Shown piece by piece: positions 1 through 5,235 of a stretch of DNA of 5,235 nucleotides. Source of the DNA: a bacterium (GTDB taxonomy: Bacteria; UBP6; JAFGXH01); assembly GCA_027064085.1 (NCBI GenBank), contig JAMOQH010000190.1:1-5235 (forward strand), written 5' to 3'. A model generated the notes under the pieces. That model did not search any database. It saw only the letters and a program-made list of their open reading frames with translations, and had not been told where the DNA came from. Each line of letters opens with the position of its first letter. Position 1 is the stretch's first letter. The position numbers were made by a program, and so were the translations under genes.

Positions 1-54
1 AATTCTGCACCCTTTGACTTTGAATTGCTCGTCTTTTCTCATCGCTTCTTCGCA

Positions 55-80
55 GTATAATGACACAAGTGCCATTATAC
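55..80. repeat. Imperfect inverted repeat (hairpin) in left flank
   Basis: GTATAATG (55-62) is the exact reverse complement of CATTATAC (73-80). Inside it, CAC (64-66) pairs with GTG (69-71) around an AA loop, leaving one A-C mismatch (63/72). The result is a nearly continuous 12-position stem with a 2-base loop. No T-run follows on either side, so it is not a classical intrinsic terminator. It sits next to the long-range inverted repeat and may be part of the same repeated element. Confidence 0.7.
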
Positions 81-97
81 ACTCAGGGCACGATGAC

Positions 98-122
98 GTG
101 GCACGCCGGCTTTATACACCAT
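98..122 (-). repeat. Left copy of long-range inverted repeat
   Basis: Bases 98-114 are an exact 17-base reverse complement of 5160-5176 (core GCCGGCGTGCCAC when read on the minus strand). Bases 112-122 are an exact 11-base reverse complement of 5074-5084 (ATGGTGTATAA). Here the two blocks are contiguous, overlapping by the three bases TAA. On the right side of the window they lie 75 bases apart. Both copies point outward from the two-gene block, with ATGGTGTATAA nearest the genes. The role is unknown; candidates are ends of a mobile or cassette-like element, or a dispersed intergenic repeat. Confidence 0.75.
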
Positions 123-274
123 ACGAGGAGGTTAATATAGAGTAGCTAGAACTGTAGACAAAATGTTTTTTAACCCGAGTATAAGAGGGAAAAGCGAGTA
201 GTCCTTAATCGATCTGCAAACTGATTTATAAACTACTACACTTTATCCCAAAATCGGTAACTATTTTTTTTCTA

Positions 275-314: not shown

Positions 315-2573
315 ATGAAAAAATATTTATTACTAACCATCTTGCTTTACTCTGTTTCTTATCAGTTATTCGCAGAATGTGATATGATGGCAATGTTAAC
401 AAAAACTGGTTATATAATGCCTGATATAAATAATGGATTAGATGACTATGATTGTCCTGATGAACTCTTTCAATTCTTACAGAATGTTTCTAGTGGAAAT
501 GACAACAATGATGGTTATGGAGTAATTTATTACAAGGACAATATACCTACACTATTCCCAGGACAAATGTTTCATCAAGTTGGTATTGGAACACATTATG
601 GTACTAATCCAGAAGAAATGAATAATGCTTATACAGCTATTTCTAACCCAAATTTAAATGCTTCAATAGTTTTGGGGCATGCCAGAAATACTTCTCAGGG
701 TGCATACGGCTCTCACCCATTTTGGTTTAATGCTGACACTGATAATGATGGCAATGATGACACTACTTTTACATTTCAGCATAATGGTGATTGTTCTGAC
801 CTACGAGAAGGAATGTTAGATTATCTTATTGATACACATGGTGCAGGTTGGTTTAATAGTAGTGAACATCCATCTAATTGGGGTGCCAGTAGTAGTTATT
901 ATACTCAATGGATAGATAGTGAGCTTTTGTTCCATTTCATTATGTCCCACATTCTTGAGTACAATGGAGATGTTACTGCTGGTATTATTGCAGCGTTAAA
1001 TTATAATGGTGAATATGGTAATTTTGAAGATTACTTTCATAACCAATCAAGTACCTATAAAATTAATTTTGTGCTATCTGATGGGAATAATTTATATGCT
1101 TTTAGAAATTATACTGGCTATAATTTATCATATAAGAGTTTTGGTAATGACTTTGTTTCATTAAAAACTGACACAATAATTACTGGTGGACAAAACATAG
1201 CTCAGCATTCTTTGGTTAAAATACCGCGTAATGGAAATATTACAACTTACAATGATATCTTTAACCTTGACACTAGACTCTTTACATCTGGTTACAATTG
1301 GGTTTCATTCCCTCGTTTAACAGATCAAAATTCAGGAACTGGGTATGAATATGAACAAGCTTACTATGAAAATGGATTGCCTGGTTTGTTCCAATTAAAT
1401 TCAACAGGTGCACCTACTATTTATGGATTTGATGAAATACAAGGTCAAAGGCTAGGCACTAATACTGTTATGATAATTGATTATTTATATCAATCCTTTG
1501 AAGATAATCTATTTGATAATATGCTTTATCGTCATGAAGGATATAAAGTGAAAGTTGATAGTAATGTTGATCCAACTGTTTTAATAGTTGATGGAGATAG
1601 ATTAGCAAGTACATACAGTTTAGACGATGAGGCTTTGAGTGCAGGAGTATATCATTGGCTAGGTTATTGGTTACCATATTCTCAAAATGTTGATGATGCT
1701 TTTGGTAAAGGTACATCCAATGATGTTTGGCAATATGTTGAGGTTGTAAAAGCCGAAGAATGGGCTTGGATGGATATGAATAGTTCTCGTGGTTTTATTG
1801 GAAAAGAACCAAAACCAAGTATGGAGATAAAACCACTAGAATATGGTAAAGCATATTTGGTAAAGTTTAATCAAAATATTGATAATTTTCAATGGAATGA
1901 TTCTAATATGATGGCAGTACCAACAAAGAACTTAGCACCACAAAACTTTACTTATGAGGAAAAATCTGATTATGAAGTAATTGATCTCCTTAATATTCCA
2001 AATGGTGTAGAGGAGATAGGAGTATACGAAAATGGTGTTTGTCTTGGAGCTGTTGTTGTTCAAGATAGTGCAGAACAAGTTTTGGTATATAGTGATACAG
2101 CTAATCGTGATGCCGGAAATTTTACTTTTGAACTCTATACAGGCTCCAGAGCTATCGATAAAATTAAGAAGTATGAAGTTTTAAATCAATACTCCGGTAA
2201 ATATGAAGCTAAACCACTTACAGCTGGAAGAAATGAATATTCTGTTGTAAGATTTGATTCAGAAACTCCTGAAGATCAACCAACAGATGCTGTACTAGTA
2301 ACAGAGGTTTATAGTAATTACCCAAATCCATTCAATCCAACCACAACTATCTTTTTCAGTTTACCATCTGAACAAAATATCGAGCTTGAGATCTACAATA
2401 GTAAAGGTCAAAAAGTAAAGAGCATCTATTCTGGTATTGCCAAAGAAGGTAAACATTCAGTGGTTTGGAATGGAACAGATAGCAATAAAAAAGCTGTTTC
2501 ATCAGGTGTTTATTTCTATAAACTTAAAACTCAGAATGATACATTTAACTGTAAAATGCTTTTGATGAAATAA
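315..2573 (+). CDS. Secreted class II glutamine-amidotransferase-like (Ntn hydrolase) protein with T9SS/FlgD-like C-terminal sorting domain
   Basis: The protein has 752 residues. Residues 1-20 form a signal peptide (MKK, then a hydrophobic stretch ending QLFA), with likely cleavage after Ala20. Residues 22 to ~275 read as a class II glutamine amidotransferase fold. Cys22 opens CDMMAML, like the nucleophile start of YafJ-type proteins. Arg124 lies in GHARNTSQG, followed by HPF (134-136), HNG (156-158, oxyanion hole) and DSE (201-203, the usual amine-binding Asp). NFVLSDGNNLYAFR (251-264) is the typical closing strand pair. In this family the domain releases ammonia from glutamine or hydrolyses a related amide. 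No synthase partner domain is seen, so the extracellular substrate is unknown. An Asp-rich DxDxDGxxD stretch (141-149) is inserted between HPF and HNG. Residues ~320-650 (GYNWVSFPRL near 326-335, Trp-rich around 448-486) are of unknown function. Residues 668-752 are the sorting domain (NYPNPFNP, WNG, SSGVYFYKLKT). The stop codon abuts a hairpin. I am confident of export and the fold, not of the substrate. Confidence 0.85.
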   Translation: MKKYLLLTILLYSVSYQLFAECDMMAMLTKTGYIMPDINNGLDDYDCPDELFQFLQNVSSGNDNNDGYGVIYYKDNIPTLFPGQMFHQVGIGTHYGTNPEEMNNAYTAISNPNLNASIVLGHARNTSQGAYGSHPFWFNADTDNDGNDDTTFTFQHNGDCSDLREGMLDYLIDTHGAGWFNSSEHPSNWGASSSYYTQWIDSELLFHFIMSHILEYNGDVTAGIIAALNYNGEYGNFEDYFHNQSSTYKINFVLSDGNNLYAFRNYTGYNLSYKSFGNDFVSLKTDTIITGGQNIAQHSLVKIPRNGNITTYNDIFNLDTRLFTSGYNWVSFPRLTDQNSGTGYEYEQAYYENGLPGLFQLNSTGAPTIYGFDEIQGQRLGTNTVMIIDYLYQSFEDNLFDNMLYRHEGYKVKVDSNVDPTVLIVDGDRLASTYSLDDEALSAGVYHWLGYWLPYSQNVDDAFGKGTSNDVWQYVEVVKAEEWAWMDMNSSRGFIGKEPKPSMEIKPLEYGKAYLVKFNQNIDNFQWNDSNMMAVPTKNLAPQNFTYEEKSDYEVIDLLNIPNGVEEIGVYENGVCLGAVVVQDSAEQVLVYSDTANRDAGNFTFELYTGSRAIDKIKKYEVLNQYSGKYEAKPLTAGRNEYSVVRFDSETPEDQPTDAVLVTEVYSNYPNPFNPTTTIFFSLPSEQNIELEIYNSKGQKVKSIYSGIAKEGKHSVVWNGTDSNKKAVSSGVYFYKLKTQNDTFNCKMLLMK

Positions 2574-2594
2574 ACAATTTCCTTTGGAAATTGT
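2574..2594. terminator. Perfect hairpin directly after gene 1 stop
   Basis: ACAATTTCC (2574-2582) pairs exactly with GGAAATTGT (2586-2594) around a TTT loop. It begins at the base after the TAA stop. The stem is AT-rich and no U-run follows, so a classical intrinsic terminator is not supported. It may instead protect the 3' end of the transcript or act together with the hairpins that follow. Confidence 0.45.
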
Positions 2595-2596
2595 AG

Positions 2597-2669
2597 CAAA
2601 CCCAGCGTTTCTTGAAGAAACGGCATTGCAAAAGTTAGTTTTTGCACAGCAAAACTAACGGTTGGTTTG
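2597..2669. repeat. Branched inverted-repeat element in the spacer
   Basis: CAAACC (2597-2602) pairs with GGTTTG (2664-2669), enclosing two further hairpins. The first is CGTTTC (2606-2611) with GAAACG (2617-2622). The second is GTTAGTTTTTGC (2634-2645) with GCAAAACTAAC (2649-2659), which has a single bulged T and an ACA loop. Drawn as RNA or single-stranded DNA, this makes a three-way junction. It is not explained by a coding sequence. It could be a structured 3' UTR or small RNA, or a short non-autonomous repeat. Confidence 0.5.
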
Positions 2670-2678
2670 TAATTACAA
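2667..2678. repeat. 12-base perfect palindrome
   Basis: TTGTAATTACAA is a perfect palindrome centred between 2672 and 2673. It overlaps the closing arm of the branched element just upstream. It might be a protein-binding site upstream of gene 2, but AT-rich palindromes of this size are not rare, so the functional claim is weak. Confidence 0.35.
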
Positions 2679-2706
2679 TAAATTTTAATCAAGAGAAAAT
2701 AAGCCT

Positions 2707-2732
2707 TAGGCGAGAATGCAAATTCTCGCCTA
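2707..2732. repeat. Perfect 11-bp hairpin with GCAA loop (REP-like)
   Basis: TAGGCGAGAAT (2707-2717) and ATTCTCGCCTA (2722-2732) are exact reverse complements around GCAA, a GNRA-type tetraloop. The stem is much richer in G+C than its surroundings, which suggests a dispersed palindromic element rather than chance. The in-frame ATG at 2716 lies inside this stem, which argues against using it as the start of gene 2. The hairpin ends 18 bases before the gene 2 ribosome site. In the transcript it could act as a processing or stabilising barrier between the two genes. Confidence 0.7.
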
Positions 2733-2750
2733 CATTAAATCATTACTCAA

Positions 2751-2755
2751 AAGGA
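2751..2755 (+). promoter_or_regulatory. Ribosome binding site that sets the start of gene 2
   Basis: AAGGA lies eight bases before the ATG at 2764. The alternative in-frame ATG at 2716 has no such site and sits within a hairpin stem. This supports starting gene 2 at 2764. Confidence 0.7.
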
Positions 2756-2763
2756 AAAACTCA

Positions 2764-5055
2764 ATGAAATTAAAAATAATATTATTTTACTCTCTTAGTT
2801 TGCTTTGTTCAATACTATTTGCAATTACTCACGAAATAAAACAAGATGGAACAGGTGATTTCTCAACCATTCAATCAGGTATTGAAGCAAGTACACATTC
2901 AGATACAGTACTTGTATATCCCGGAAGATATTTCGAGAATATTAATTTTCTTGAAAAATCAATAACAGTTACCTCTTTGTATTCCATCAATCAACAGGAT
3001 TCCCTTATTGCTCAAACTATTATAGATGGTAATCATCAAGGTAGATGTGTAACAATTAGTAATTGTGAATCTGCTGCAATTATAGGTTTTACAATTCAAA
3101 ATGGGTATGCTTTTGAGTCTGGTTGGACAGGTTCCTTAGGCGGTGGCATTATGATAGAATATGGTGCAAATACATTAATAGCCAATTGCCTAATAAAAGA
3201 AAATTTCGCGAATGGTGGTGGTGGAGTTAGTGTCTTTTATTCACAAAATATATATTTTAAGGGTAATACAATTATTAGCAATAGAGGTATTTTCTATGGA
3301 GGTGGAATTTCCGTTGCTGGAAATGAATTAAACTTAGAGTTTAATAATGTTTATTTAAACAATATATACCTAAATTATGCTCCAACCGGTTCAGAAATTA
3401 ATATTCCATTTCTTCAAAATCCTGTTGAGATAGTTTTAGATACTTTTATTGTAGCAAATCCGGATTATTTCCACATTACTTGCCCTGACACATTATACAC
3501 ATTTTCGTGCCTTAATTCAGCAATCGAAGAGATAGATCAAGACCTATATGTTTCTCCAGATGGAGATGACAATAACAGTGGATTAACACCCCAAGAACCC
3601 CTGCAAACATTAGCATGGGCACAAACAATTATTAAAAGAAATGATAGCAATCCTCATACCATTCATCTAGCTGAAGGAACTTACTCTCCGTCATTAAATA
3701 ATCAAATTTTACCACTTAATGTGAAGCACGGTGTACTATTCAAGGGAGTTTCACAAGAGCTAACTATTTTAGATGCTGAAGAAGAAACTTCTTTTTTCAA
3801 TCAATATTTTCGAGATCAAAGTGAATTTGCTAAACTAGCTTTGAAAGATTTAAAGATGATAAATGGAGCAGAAAATGGTTCACCTTCTAATGGGGGAATT
3901 AAAATTTATCAAGCTGATTTGCATTTAACAAATGTAACAATTGAAAATTGTAATGGTCACTCAGGTGGAACCATTCAAACGAGTAACGGTTATTGCAATT
4001 TAGAAAATGTTATTATGAATAATAATACAGGTTTCAAAGCACTAAGTCTTGGCATAGAATATAATTGTCCCAATCCTGTCAGAAATGTAAGAATAGCAAA
4101 TTCCAGATTTATAAACAATAGTAATAGTATTTATGATCCTGATTTTACAGATGGTGGAGCAATAAGAATTGGTGGTCATAGCAATATACCAGGCGATTAT
4201 TATGCAGAAATATTAAATTGTGAGTTCATATCAAATTATAATGCATCAGATTTTTTTGGAATTGGGGGTTCCTCCGCTGTATCGGTTGATCATTTAGATT
4301 TGGTTAATGTCATCAACTGTACTTTTTCGGATAATACATTATTGAATAATGCAGGATGTACTATTGCAGTAGAGTTTTCAGAATTAAATTTCATTAATAA
4401 TATAGTTTATGGAAACGAAGGACTTTCAATAAGACTGTATGAAGAAGGTGATGTAAACATTGCACATTCACTACTTGAAGGTTCAACTTATAATATTGAT
4501 CAGTATCATCCAGACACAGAAATAAATTGGTTAGATGGAAATTTTGAGGAATTTACAGATCCAGGATTTTGTGGAGAAAACAATAATTATCCATTCTATT
4601 CATTAGAAGCTGACTCTCCCTGCATTGATGCAGGAACTTTAGATTTACTGGAAGGAATTGAACTTCCTGAATATGATTTGGCTGGTAATCCACGTGTTTA
4701 TGGTGAAGCAATCGATATGGGTGCTTATGAATTTCAGGGAGAATCACAAGCAGCCGAACCTGAGGAAGTGACTATACCAAAAGAAACTAAAATCTCAAAT
4801 TACCCAAATCCTTTTAATCCTTCAACAACGATAAAGCTTAATCTTGCTGAATCAGGAAAAATTATTTTATCAATTTATAATACAAAAGGGCAGAAAATTA
4901 TAACATTACTTAATAAAGAAATGTATGCAGGGCAATATGATATAATTTGGAATGGGGTTAACGAAAATAATTTTCCAGTTAGTTCTGGTGTTTATCTTTA
5001 TAAAGTTAAAACTAGAAATCAAGAGTCTGTTAATCGGATGATATTGTTAAAGTGA
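2764..5055 (+). CDS. Secreted protein with two parallel beta-helix modules and T9SS/FlgD-like C-terminal sorting domain
   Basis: I start the gene at 2764 (763 residues). The frame is open back to an ATG at 2716, but that adds 16 residues in front of a clean signal peptide (MKLK, hydrophobic core, SILFA, cleavage near Ala20), lies in a hairpin and lacks a ribosome site. Residues ~24-215 form a first right-handed beta-helix. It opens with IKQDGTGDFSTIQSGIEA and a DTVLVYPGRY turn, as in pectinesterase-like solenoids, and continues with GGGI and asparagine-rich rungs. A second module opens at YVSPDGDDNNSGL (262-274) and LQTLAWA, the DUF1565-type entry, and runs to ~615 through rungs such as NVIMNNNTGF. 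The segment SPCIDAG ... DLAGNPRV ... IDMGAYEF (618-657) is the usual closing motif of this beta-helix family. Residues 679-763 are the sorting domain. The family includes polysaccharide lyases, adhesins and surface structural proteins; I see no identifiable catalytic set, so I do not call an enzyme. It is probably a surface partner of gene 1, exported by the same route. Confidence 0.88.
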   Translation: MKLKIILFYSLSLLCSILFAITHEIKQDGTGDFSTIQSGIEASTHSDTVLVYPGRYFENINFLEKSITVTSLYSINQQDSLIAQTIIDGNHQGRCVTISNCESAAIIGFTIQNGYAFESGWTGSLGGGIMIEYGANTLIANCLIKENFANGGGGVSVFYSQNIYFKGNTIISNRGIFYGGGISVAGNELNLEFNNVYLNNIYLNYAPTGSEINIPFLQNPVEIVLDTFIVANPDYFHITCPDTLYTFSCLNSAIEEIDQDLYVSPDGDDNNSGLTPQEPLQTLAWAQTIIKRNDSNPHTIHLAEGTYSPSLNNQILPLNVKHGVLFKGVSQELTILDAEEETSFFNQYFRDQSEFAKLALKDLKMINGAENGSPSNGGIKIYQADLHLTNVTIENCNGHSGGTIQTSNGYCNLENVIMNNNTGFKALSLGIEYNCPNPVRNVRIANSRFINNSNSIYDPDFTDGGAIRIGGHSNIPGDYYAEILNCEFISNYNASDFFGIGGSSAVSVDHLDLVNVINCTFSDNTLLNNAGCTIAVEFSELNFINNIVYGNEGLSIRLYEEGDVNIAHSLLEGSTYNIDQYHPDTEINWLDGNFEEFTDPGFCGENNNYPFYSLEADSPCIDAGTLDLLEGIELPEYDLAGNPRVYGEAIDMGAYEFQGESQAAEPEEVTIPKETKISNYPNPFNPSTTIKLNLAESGKIILSIYNTKGQKIITLLNKEMYAGQYDIIWNGVNENNFPVSSGVYLYKVKTRNQESVNRMILLK

Positions 5056-5088
5056 TGAAGAATATGAAGAAAGATGGTGTATAACATA

Positions 5089-5120
5089 GCTATCCGTGCA
5101 GCAAAGCTGCTCGGCATAGC
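5089..5120. repeat. Long imperfect hairpin after gene 2
   Basis: GCTAT (5089-5093), CCG (5094-5096) and GCAGC (5098-5102) pair with GCTGC (5106-5110), CGG (5112-5114) and ATAGC (5116-5120) around an AAA loop. There is one T-T mismatch (5097/5111) and one unpaired C (5115). This gives 13 base pairs in total. The stem is G+C-rich but not followed by a T-run. It could serve as a transcription or mRNA end for gene 2, or be part of the repeated element. Confidence 0.65.
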
Positions 5121-5127
5121 CCACACA

Positions 5128-5162
5128 TTAACCAACATTCCGCTTCGCTCCATGTTGATTAA
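5128..5162. repeat. Second imperfect hairpin after gene 2
   Basis: TTAA (5128-5131) pairs with TTAA (5159-5162), and CAACAT (5133-5138) with ATGTTG (5152-5157). One C-A mismatch lies between them (5132/5158), and a 13-base apical region contains a minor CG/CG pairing. Its outer arm ends at the point where the conserved 17-base repeat begins, so this hairpin is part of the segment absent from the left copy. Confidence 0.55.
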
Positions 5163-5235
5163 AGCCGGCGTGCCACTAAAAAAGACTCGCAACCGCATCG
5201 AAGCGGAACGTCGTTTAACATCACGTCCACGAGAT

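Follow-up and report, generated by a model that had tools for sequence, protein, structure and literature searches.

A putative extracellular hydrolase with a class II glutamine amidotransferase fold and a T9SS sorting domain

Class II glutamine amidotransferases (GATases) are textbook intracellular, ammonia-producing domains. As known from PurF and GlmS, their catalysis depends on an N-terminal Cys whose amino group is free, while an Arg and an Asp bind the α-groups of glutamine and an HNG motif forms the oxyanion hole. Many GATase_4 proteins, of the YafJ and EgtC type, are free-standing and have no synthase. The initial annotation of the locus described here, which considered the family normally paired with a synthase, was therefore overstated on this point, although it rightly regarded export itself as unusual. 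The free-standing GATase_4 enzymes (PF13230; YafJ type, SPO2029 3mdn and PA 1te5) have the same motifs (Cys, H-x-R, HPF, HNG, D-x-E and N-x(3)-S/T-D-G) and the same fold as the protein analysed here, ORF1, and likewise lack a synthase domain. In contrast to ORF1, which has a signal peptide-like start, insertions, an adaptor and a T9SS tail, these enzymes start with Met-Cys and are cytoplasmic.

ORF1 lies in a 5,235-nucleotide stretch of DNA, here called the window, which is contig C190 of bin G000. Its front is very likely an exported class II GATase domain. We further propose, with a probability of roughly 0.6, that ORF1 is an extracellular Cys-Ntn hydrolase, a free-standing class II GATase (GATase_4, EgtC/YafJ-like) that cuts a γ-glutamyl amide outside the cell by the full mechanism set out below. 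The features of the window are as follows, all on the plus strand.

155-259, plus: leader with an inverted repeat, also present ahead of five sibling genes from the same bin
315-2573, plus: ORF1, 752 aa, with GATase domain, adaptor and T9SS tail; predicted to be exported
315-374, plus: signal peptide-like segment, residues 1-20, recognised by eye (KK, hydrophobic core, L-F-A)
375-377, plus: Glu21, a putative one-residue propeptide ahead of the nucleophile, from the position of the cleavage site
378-1268, plus: class II GATase domain (GATase_4-like, Ntn), residues 22-318, from Pfam GATase_4 and a fold like PurF/GlmS/EgtC
378-380, plus: Cys22, predicted N-terminal nucleophile; invariant, in one column with the first Cys of both PurF and GlmS
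684-686, plus: Arg124 of GHAR, predicted to bind the α-carboxylate of the glutamyl moiety; invariant, role transferred from PurF/GlmS
780-788, plus: His156-Asn157-Gly158, predicted oxyanion hole; invariant, role transferred from PurF/GlmS
915-923, plus: Asp201-Ser-Glu203, the Asp being the predicted α-amino binder; Asp201 and Glu203 invariant, role from PurF/GlmS
1269-2264, plus: adaptor, residues 319-650, common to ten other exported proteins with differing front domains
2319-2555, plus: T9SS type A sorting domain, residues 669-747 (TIGR04183 E 2.9e-10; PF18962 E 2.5e-8)
2716-5055, plus: ORF2, 779 aa, a β-helix-type exported protein with a T9SS sorting domain (choice_anch_Q, TIGR04183)

Catalytic residues and predicted fold of the ORF1 front domain

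The landmark residues that had been noted earlier (Cys22, Arg124 in GHARNTSQG, HPF, HNG, DSE and SDG) were all found exactly at the positions claimed, the closing strand being NFVLSDG at residues 251-257. The end of the domain, previously placed at residues 272-275, was corrected to about residue 318 (nt 1268). In a set of seven homologues, the other members of which are 27-68% identical to the window protein, the invariant residues include Cys22, His122, Arg124, HPF, His156-Asn157-Gly158, Asp201, Glu203 and Asp256. PurF and GlmS were also found by profile search in the same bin, on other contigs, and in an 18-row alignment the Cys, Arg, HNG, D and E share columns with them. That the catalytic residues are kept though identity drops to 27% argues for selection on activity.

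The Pfam GATase_4 profile, proposed in the initial annotation as a check, matched beyond chance. The window itself scored below the cut-off of 23 bits, both as the isolated domain (21.9 bits, E 9e-5) and as the whole ORF1 protein (17.6 bits), while the cut-off was passed by five homologues, namely L026 from the same bin (27.6 bits) and the more distant L041-L044 (29-73 bits). The profile matched six of the seven family members, with a best E of 4e-21. Searches with Pfam and TIGRFAM-type profiles found no synthase domain on ORF1, as had been stated. With phmmer, the single window sequence gave only chance superoxide dismutase matches in the PDB, and no Rfam family matched the window.

A structure model of the domain was built from five Cloacimonadota rows (pLDDT 63.6, pTM 0.71). 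Since the only GATase_4 members in its alignment came from Cloacimonadota, the fold result is independent of the profile search. Ranks 1-38 of a Foldseek search against the PDB were all class II GATase-type domains, from PurF, EgtC, SPO2029, PA 1te5, β-lactam synthetase, TsnB9, glutamate synthase and asparagine synthetase. The VIA-align Z scores were 11.8 for PurF, 10.8 for the GlmS glutaminase domain and 10.2 for EgtC. The predicted model, which best matches PurF, GlmS and EgtC, supports the four-layer Ntn (αββα) class II GATase fold expected from the initial annotation. The further expectation that Cys22, Arg124, Asn157 and Asp201 lie in one pocket is supported via fold and alignment; the geometry around Cys22 is seen only indirectly, because the first residues of the model have a pLDDT under 50.

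Relatives, genomic setting and origin of the contig

Homologues were found in four records of the uncultured phylum Cloacimonadota, two of them from Ca. Tenebribacter mawsonii (L032 and L033, 67-68% identity) and two more distant (L034 and L035, 33-41%). The 28 genomes searched from the phylum to which the bin is assigned contained no homologue outside the bin itself. A search of 386 genomes recovered ordinary cytoplasmic Met-Cys proteins and also, in G128, G104, G351 and G246, relatives of the exported type. The relative in G128 (L041) combines GATase_4 with Golvesin_C, and a hydrophobic segment is present at the N-terminus of two others (L042 and L044). No relatives of ORF1 were found in the plasmid collection or among viral contigs. 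The window protein does not stand alone: four lineages besides Cloacimonadota contain exported relatives, and the exported GATase_4 proteins found here, although sparse, span several lineages and show four or more architectures. Tree building grouped the Cloacimonadota rows with L026 and L043 (from G351) in one clade with 100/100 support, and a single origin of all exported forms was recovered in 31% of bootstrap trees.

Two neighbourhoods among these relatives were also recorded. In L042 and L044, which belong to two different families, the exported GATase_4 gene adjoins both a DUF502 and a YidD gene, an arrangement that suggests conservation of the neighbourhood. In L043, the gene immediately preceding the exported GATase on the same strand (2489-3379, minus) can be read by eye as a lipoprotein containing a stretch similar to transglutaminase, a reading that Pfam did not confirm.

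The composition of the window differs from that of its bin. The large contigs of G000 have a GC content of 0.27, compared to 0.29-0.34 for the window and eight sibling contigs (L019-L026; C142, C183, C186, C29, C5, C48, C175 and C36), and the pooled tetranucleotide use of window and siblings is closest to Tenebribacter G387 (distance 0.15, versus 0.26 to G000). Bulk G000 proteins are ~35% identical to their best matches in the Cloacimonadota G389 and G387, whereas the window domain reaches the 67-68% given above. SprA was looked for in MAG G000 and not found, but was present in 4/4 named Cloacimonadota genomes with homologues. In ~295 kb of the larger G000 contigs the only sorting-domain-like match was FlgD itself, whereas the window and sibling contigs are dense in T9SS sorting domains. 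From GC content, tetranucleotide use, protein identities and the T9SS and SprA data, we infer that the window contig was probably mis-binned and comes from a member of the Cloacimonadota similar to Tenebribacter. One sibling, L020, speaks against this, its composition being nearer to that of G000, and recent transfer may be an alternative to mis-binning.

The adaptor is common to ten other ORFs (L019-L025, L032, L033 and L035). Its fronts are a peptidase C10 with an I69 propeptide (L019, L021), β-helix-like domains (L020, L022, L024, L025) and the same GATase as in ORF1 (L032, L033, L035); the front of L023 has no assignment. The GATase of L034 and L026 is built into another, longer architecture that lacks the adaptor. 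An ORF2-like β-helix gene directly follows the adaptor gene in 7/7 contigs that continue downstream, the remaining four ending at the contig edge before the next gene, and the ORF2 homologue in L035 matches Beta_helix. This two-gene unit, an adaptor protein with an exchangeable front followed by a β-helix sorting-domain protein, was observed at 1269-5055 of the window and in L019, L021, L023, L025, L032 and L035. Structure prediction of the adaptor gave no confident fold (pLDDT 37). A broader proposal would be that Cloacimonadota have a modular paired-gene surface system, in which an exchangeable front enzyme (in this case a class II GATase as extracellular γ-glutamyl hydrolase on poly-γ-glutamate or γ-glutamyl peptides) is joined to the common adaptor and T9SS tail and acts as a unit with a constant β-helix partner; taken as a whole, we regard it as improbable.

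The ~100-nt leader, with the inverted repeat GGGAAAAG..AGTAGT / ACTACT..CTTYTCCC, was found upstream of six exported-protein genes (window 155-259; L022 1612-1714; L023 4494-4592; L024 2812-2912; L025 147-248; L026 54-157), and only in these contigs among the 1.0 Mb searched. It matched no Rfam family, and when evaluated as a structured RNA, 97% of cells were paired with no covariation; an inverted-repeat DNA element is equally possible. Repeats are also shared between contig ends (window 17-114 and 5075-5231; L022 1-98; L023 1-157), with identities of 100% over 98 nt and 91% over 161 nt, and are probably the reason why the assembly breaks here. An integron origin of these end repeats was not supported, as the integron-integrase model found only recombinases under its cut-off and the repeat pattern occurred only twice.

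Export, release of the nucleophile and proposed reaction

The two export signals reported earlier, a signal peptide (here a putative one, read by eye) and a T9SS-type C-terminal domain, are supported. By eye, the N-terminus of ORF1 has KK, a hydrophobic stretch and L-F-A/E, with likely cleavage after Ala20, and the C-terminal domain matches TIGR04183 (40 bits against a cut-off of 23) and PF18962. Export of the GATase is well supported because the same carrier, adaptor plus tail, bears the typically secreted peptidase C10. The sequence A-(E/D)-C is kept in 6/6 Cloacimonadota-type proteins, and cleavage between A20 and E21 would leave one acidic residue ahead of Cys22 in the window protein and its closest relatives. 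Propeptide removal is known for class II GATases, in which short segments ahead of the Cys are described as autocatalytically removed (PMC9140057), and a one-residue propeptide is plausible for this reason. L043 reads ..ALWARA/CEFIALMA, with the Cys right behind the A-R-A cleavage site and a T9SS sorting domain at the end of the protein. Given this A-R-A/C site, its Cys would be freed directly, with no further processing.

ORF1 is most likely a glutaminase-like γ-glutamyl-amide hydrolase rather than a synthase subunit. The protein would be exported through Sec and cleaved after Ala20, and Glu21 would then be lost, autocatalytically or by a peptidase, leaving the amino group of Cys22 free. Arg124 and Asp201 would hold the α-carboxylate and α-amino groups of a glutamyl moiety while Cys22 attacks the γ-amide, with Asn157-Gly158 as the oxyanion hole; these residues were placed by alignment and their roles transferred from PurF/GlmS. 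Glutamate would be released, together with ammonia or an amine, into the medium. Such hydrolysis with release outside the cell is expected because no fused synthase or acceptor domain was found. Through its adaptor and T9SS domain the enzyme would reach the outer surface or the medium, probably with the ORF2 protein, an interaction suggested by the observed gene pairing. The likely purpose would be to let a fermentative, polymer-degrading bacterium scavenge glutamate and amide nitrogen.

Two other readings concern whether the domain cuts γ-glutamyl amides at all. If Glu21, which the predicted cleavage leaves in place, were to stay ahead of Cys22, there would be no Ntn nucleophile and the GATase domain would be non-catalytic or vestigial and used for binding, in keeping with the drift of the window sequence below the Pfam cut-off. 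We consider this unlikely, as a binding domain would not need the catalytic residues that are invariant down to 27% identity, and L043 requires no extra processing. Alternatively, ORF1 could be an exported Ntn amidase of shifted specificity, acting on a peptidoglycan stem amide or an N-acyl amide in a role like that of the penicillin V acylase/choloylglycine hydrolase group, in which exported Cys-Ntn amidases exist. The insertions that Cloacimonadota-type domains carry before the GHAR motif could reshape the pocket in this way. However, no member has lost the Arg and Asp that recognise the glutamyl moiety, and both Pfam and the best fold matches point to GATases, which makes such a shift highly improbable.

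Within the preferred reading of an extracellular γ-glutamyl-amide hydrolase, free glutamine, glutathione-like γ-glutamyl peptides and poly-γ-glutamate would all fit the predicted roles of Arg and Asp. An enzyme specialised for poly-γ-glutamate or γ-glutamyl peptides would remove N-terminal γ-linked glutamyl residues and trim the cell's own polymer or that of a neighbour. An N-terminal γ-linked glutamyl residue has free α-groups, as in glutamine, and EgtC, one of the fold matches, acts on a γ-glutamyl compound. One paper (PMC8542988) reports synthesis of poly-γ-glutamate through CapBC in Ca. Tenebribacter, Stygibacter and Zophobacter. CapC occurs in 5/8 other genomes with an exported GATase versus 46/386 overall (Fisher p 0.006 on four genomes of the 386 sample, uncorrected for kinship), a post hoc link that arose after the paper and rests on tiny numbers. 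On the other side, CapC was not found in G386, G389, G104 or G000, none of the loci seen has cap genes next to the exported GATase gene, and a polymer of D-glutamate would require other stereochemistry. Such specialisation is thus rather unlikely, and we treat poly-γ-glutamate as a substrate as a weak lead.

Comparison with known systems

The penicillin V acylase/choloylglycine hydrolase group provides the precedent for a Cys-Ntn hydrolase with a signal peptide. It is another Ntn subfamily, whereas ORF1 bears the GATase signature; the group gave no Pfam match on ORF1 and is absent among the fold matches listed. In the literature that could be searched, which is incomplete, we found no description of secreted class II GATases or of an exported form with a sorting domain. 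A sparse, multi-lineage set of exported GATases with an intact active site would imply an extracellular γ-glutamyl-amide chemistry for which we found no name, with an Ntn nucleophile uncovered by signal peptidase rather than by Met aminopeptidase. For the uncultured fermenters that live at anoxic sites it would also provide a candidate hydrolase, which might take part in turning over γ-glutamyl compounds or polymers.

EgtC, the γ-glutamyl hydrolase of the ergothioneine pathway (TIGR03442; 4zfj, 4zfk and 4zfl), shares its fold with the ORF1 model, and its hydrolysis without ammonia transfer is the model that we apply to ORF1. Unlike ORF1, EgtC is cytoplasmic and belongs to another pathway; TIGR03442 gave no match on the window and scored L032 at 17.9 bits (cut-off 218.65). 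The glutaminase domains of PurF and GlmS are the best structural matches and have the same catalytic columns, but they are fused to a synthase to which ammonia is channelled and are intracellular, whereas ORF1 has no synthase. The peptidase C10 cargo of the T9SS in the same organism (L019, L021) has the same adaptor, T9SS tail and downstream β-helix partner as ORF1, and differs in its front, a cysteine protease with an inhibitor propeptide in place of the GATase. In fold and residues the domain falls within a known superfamily, and the new part would be its exported, sorting-domain form.
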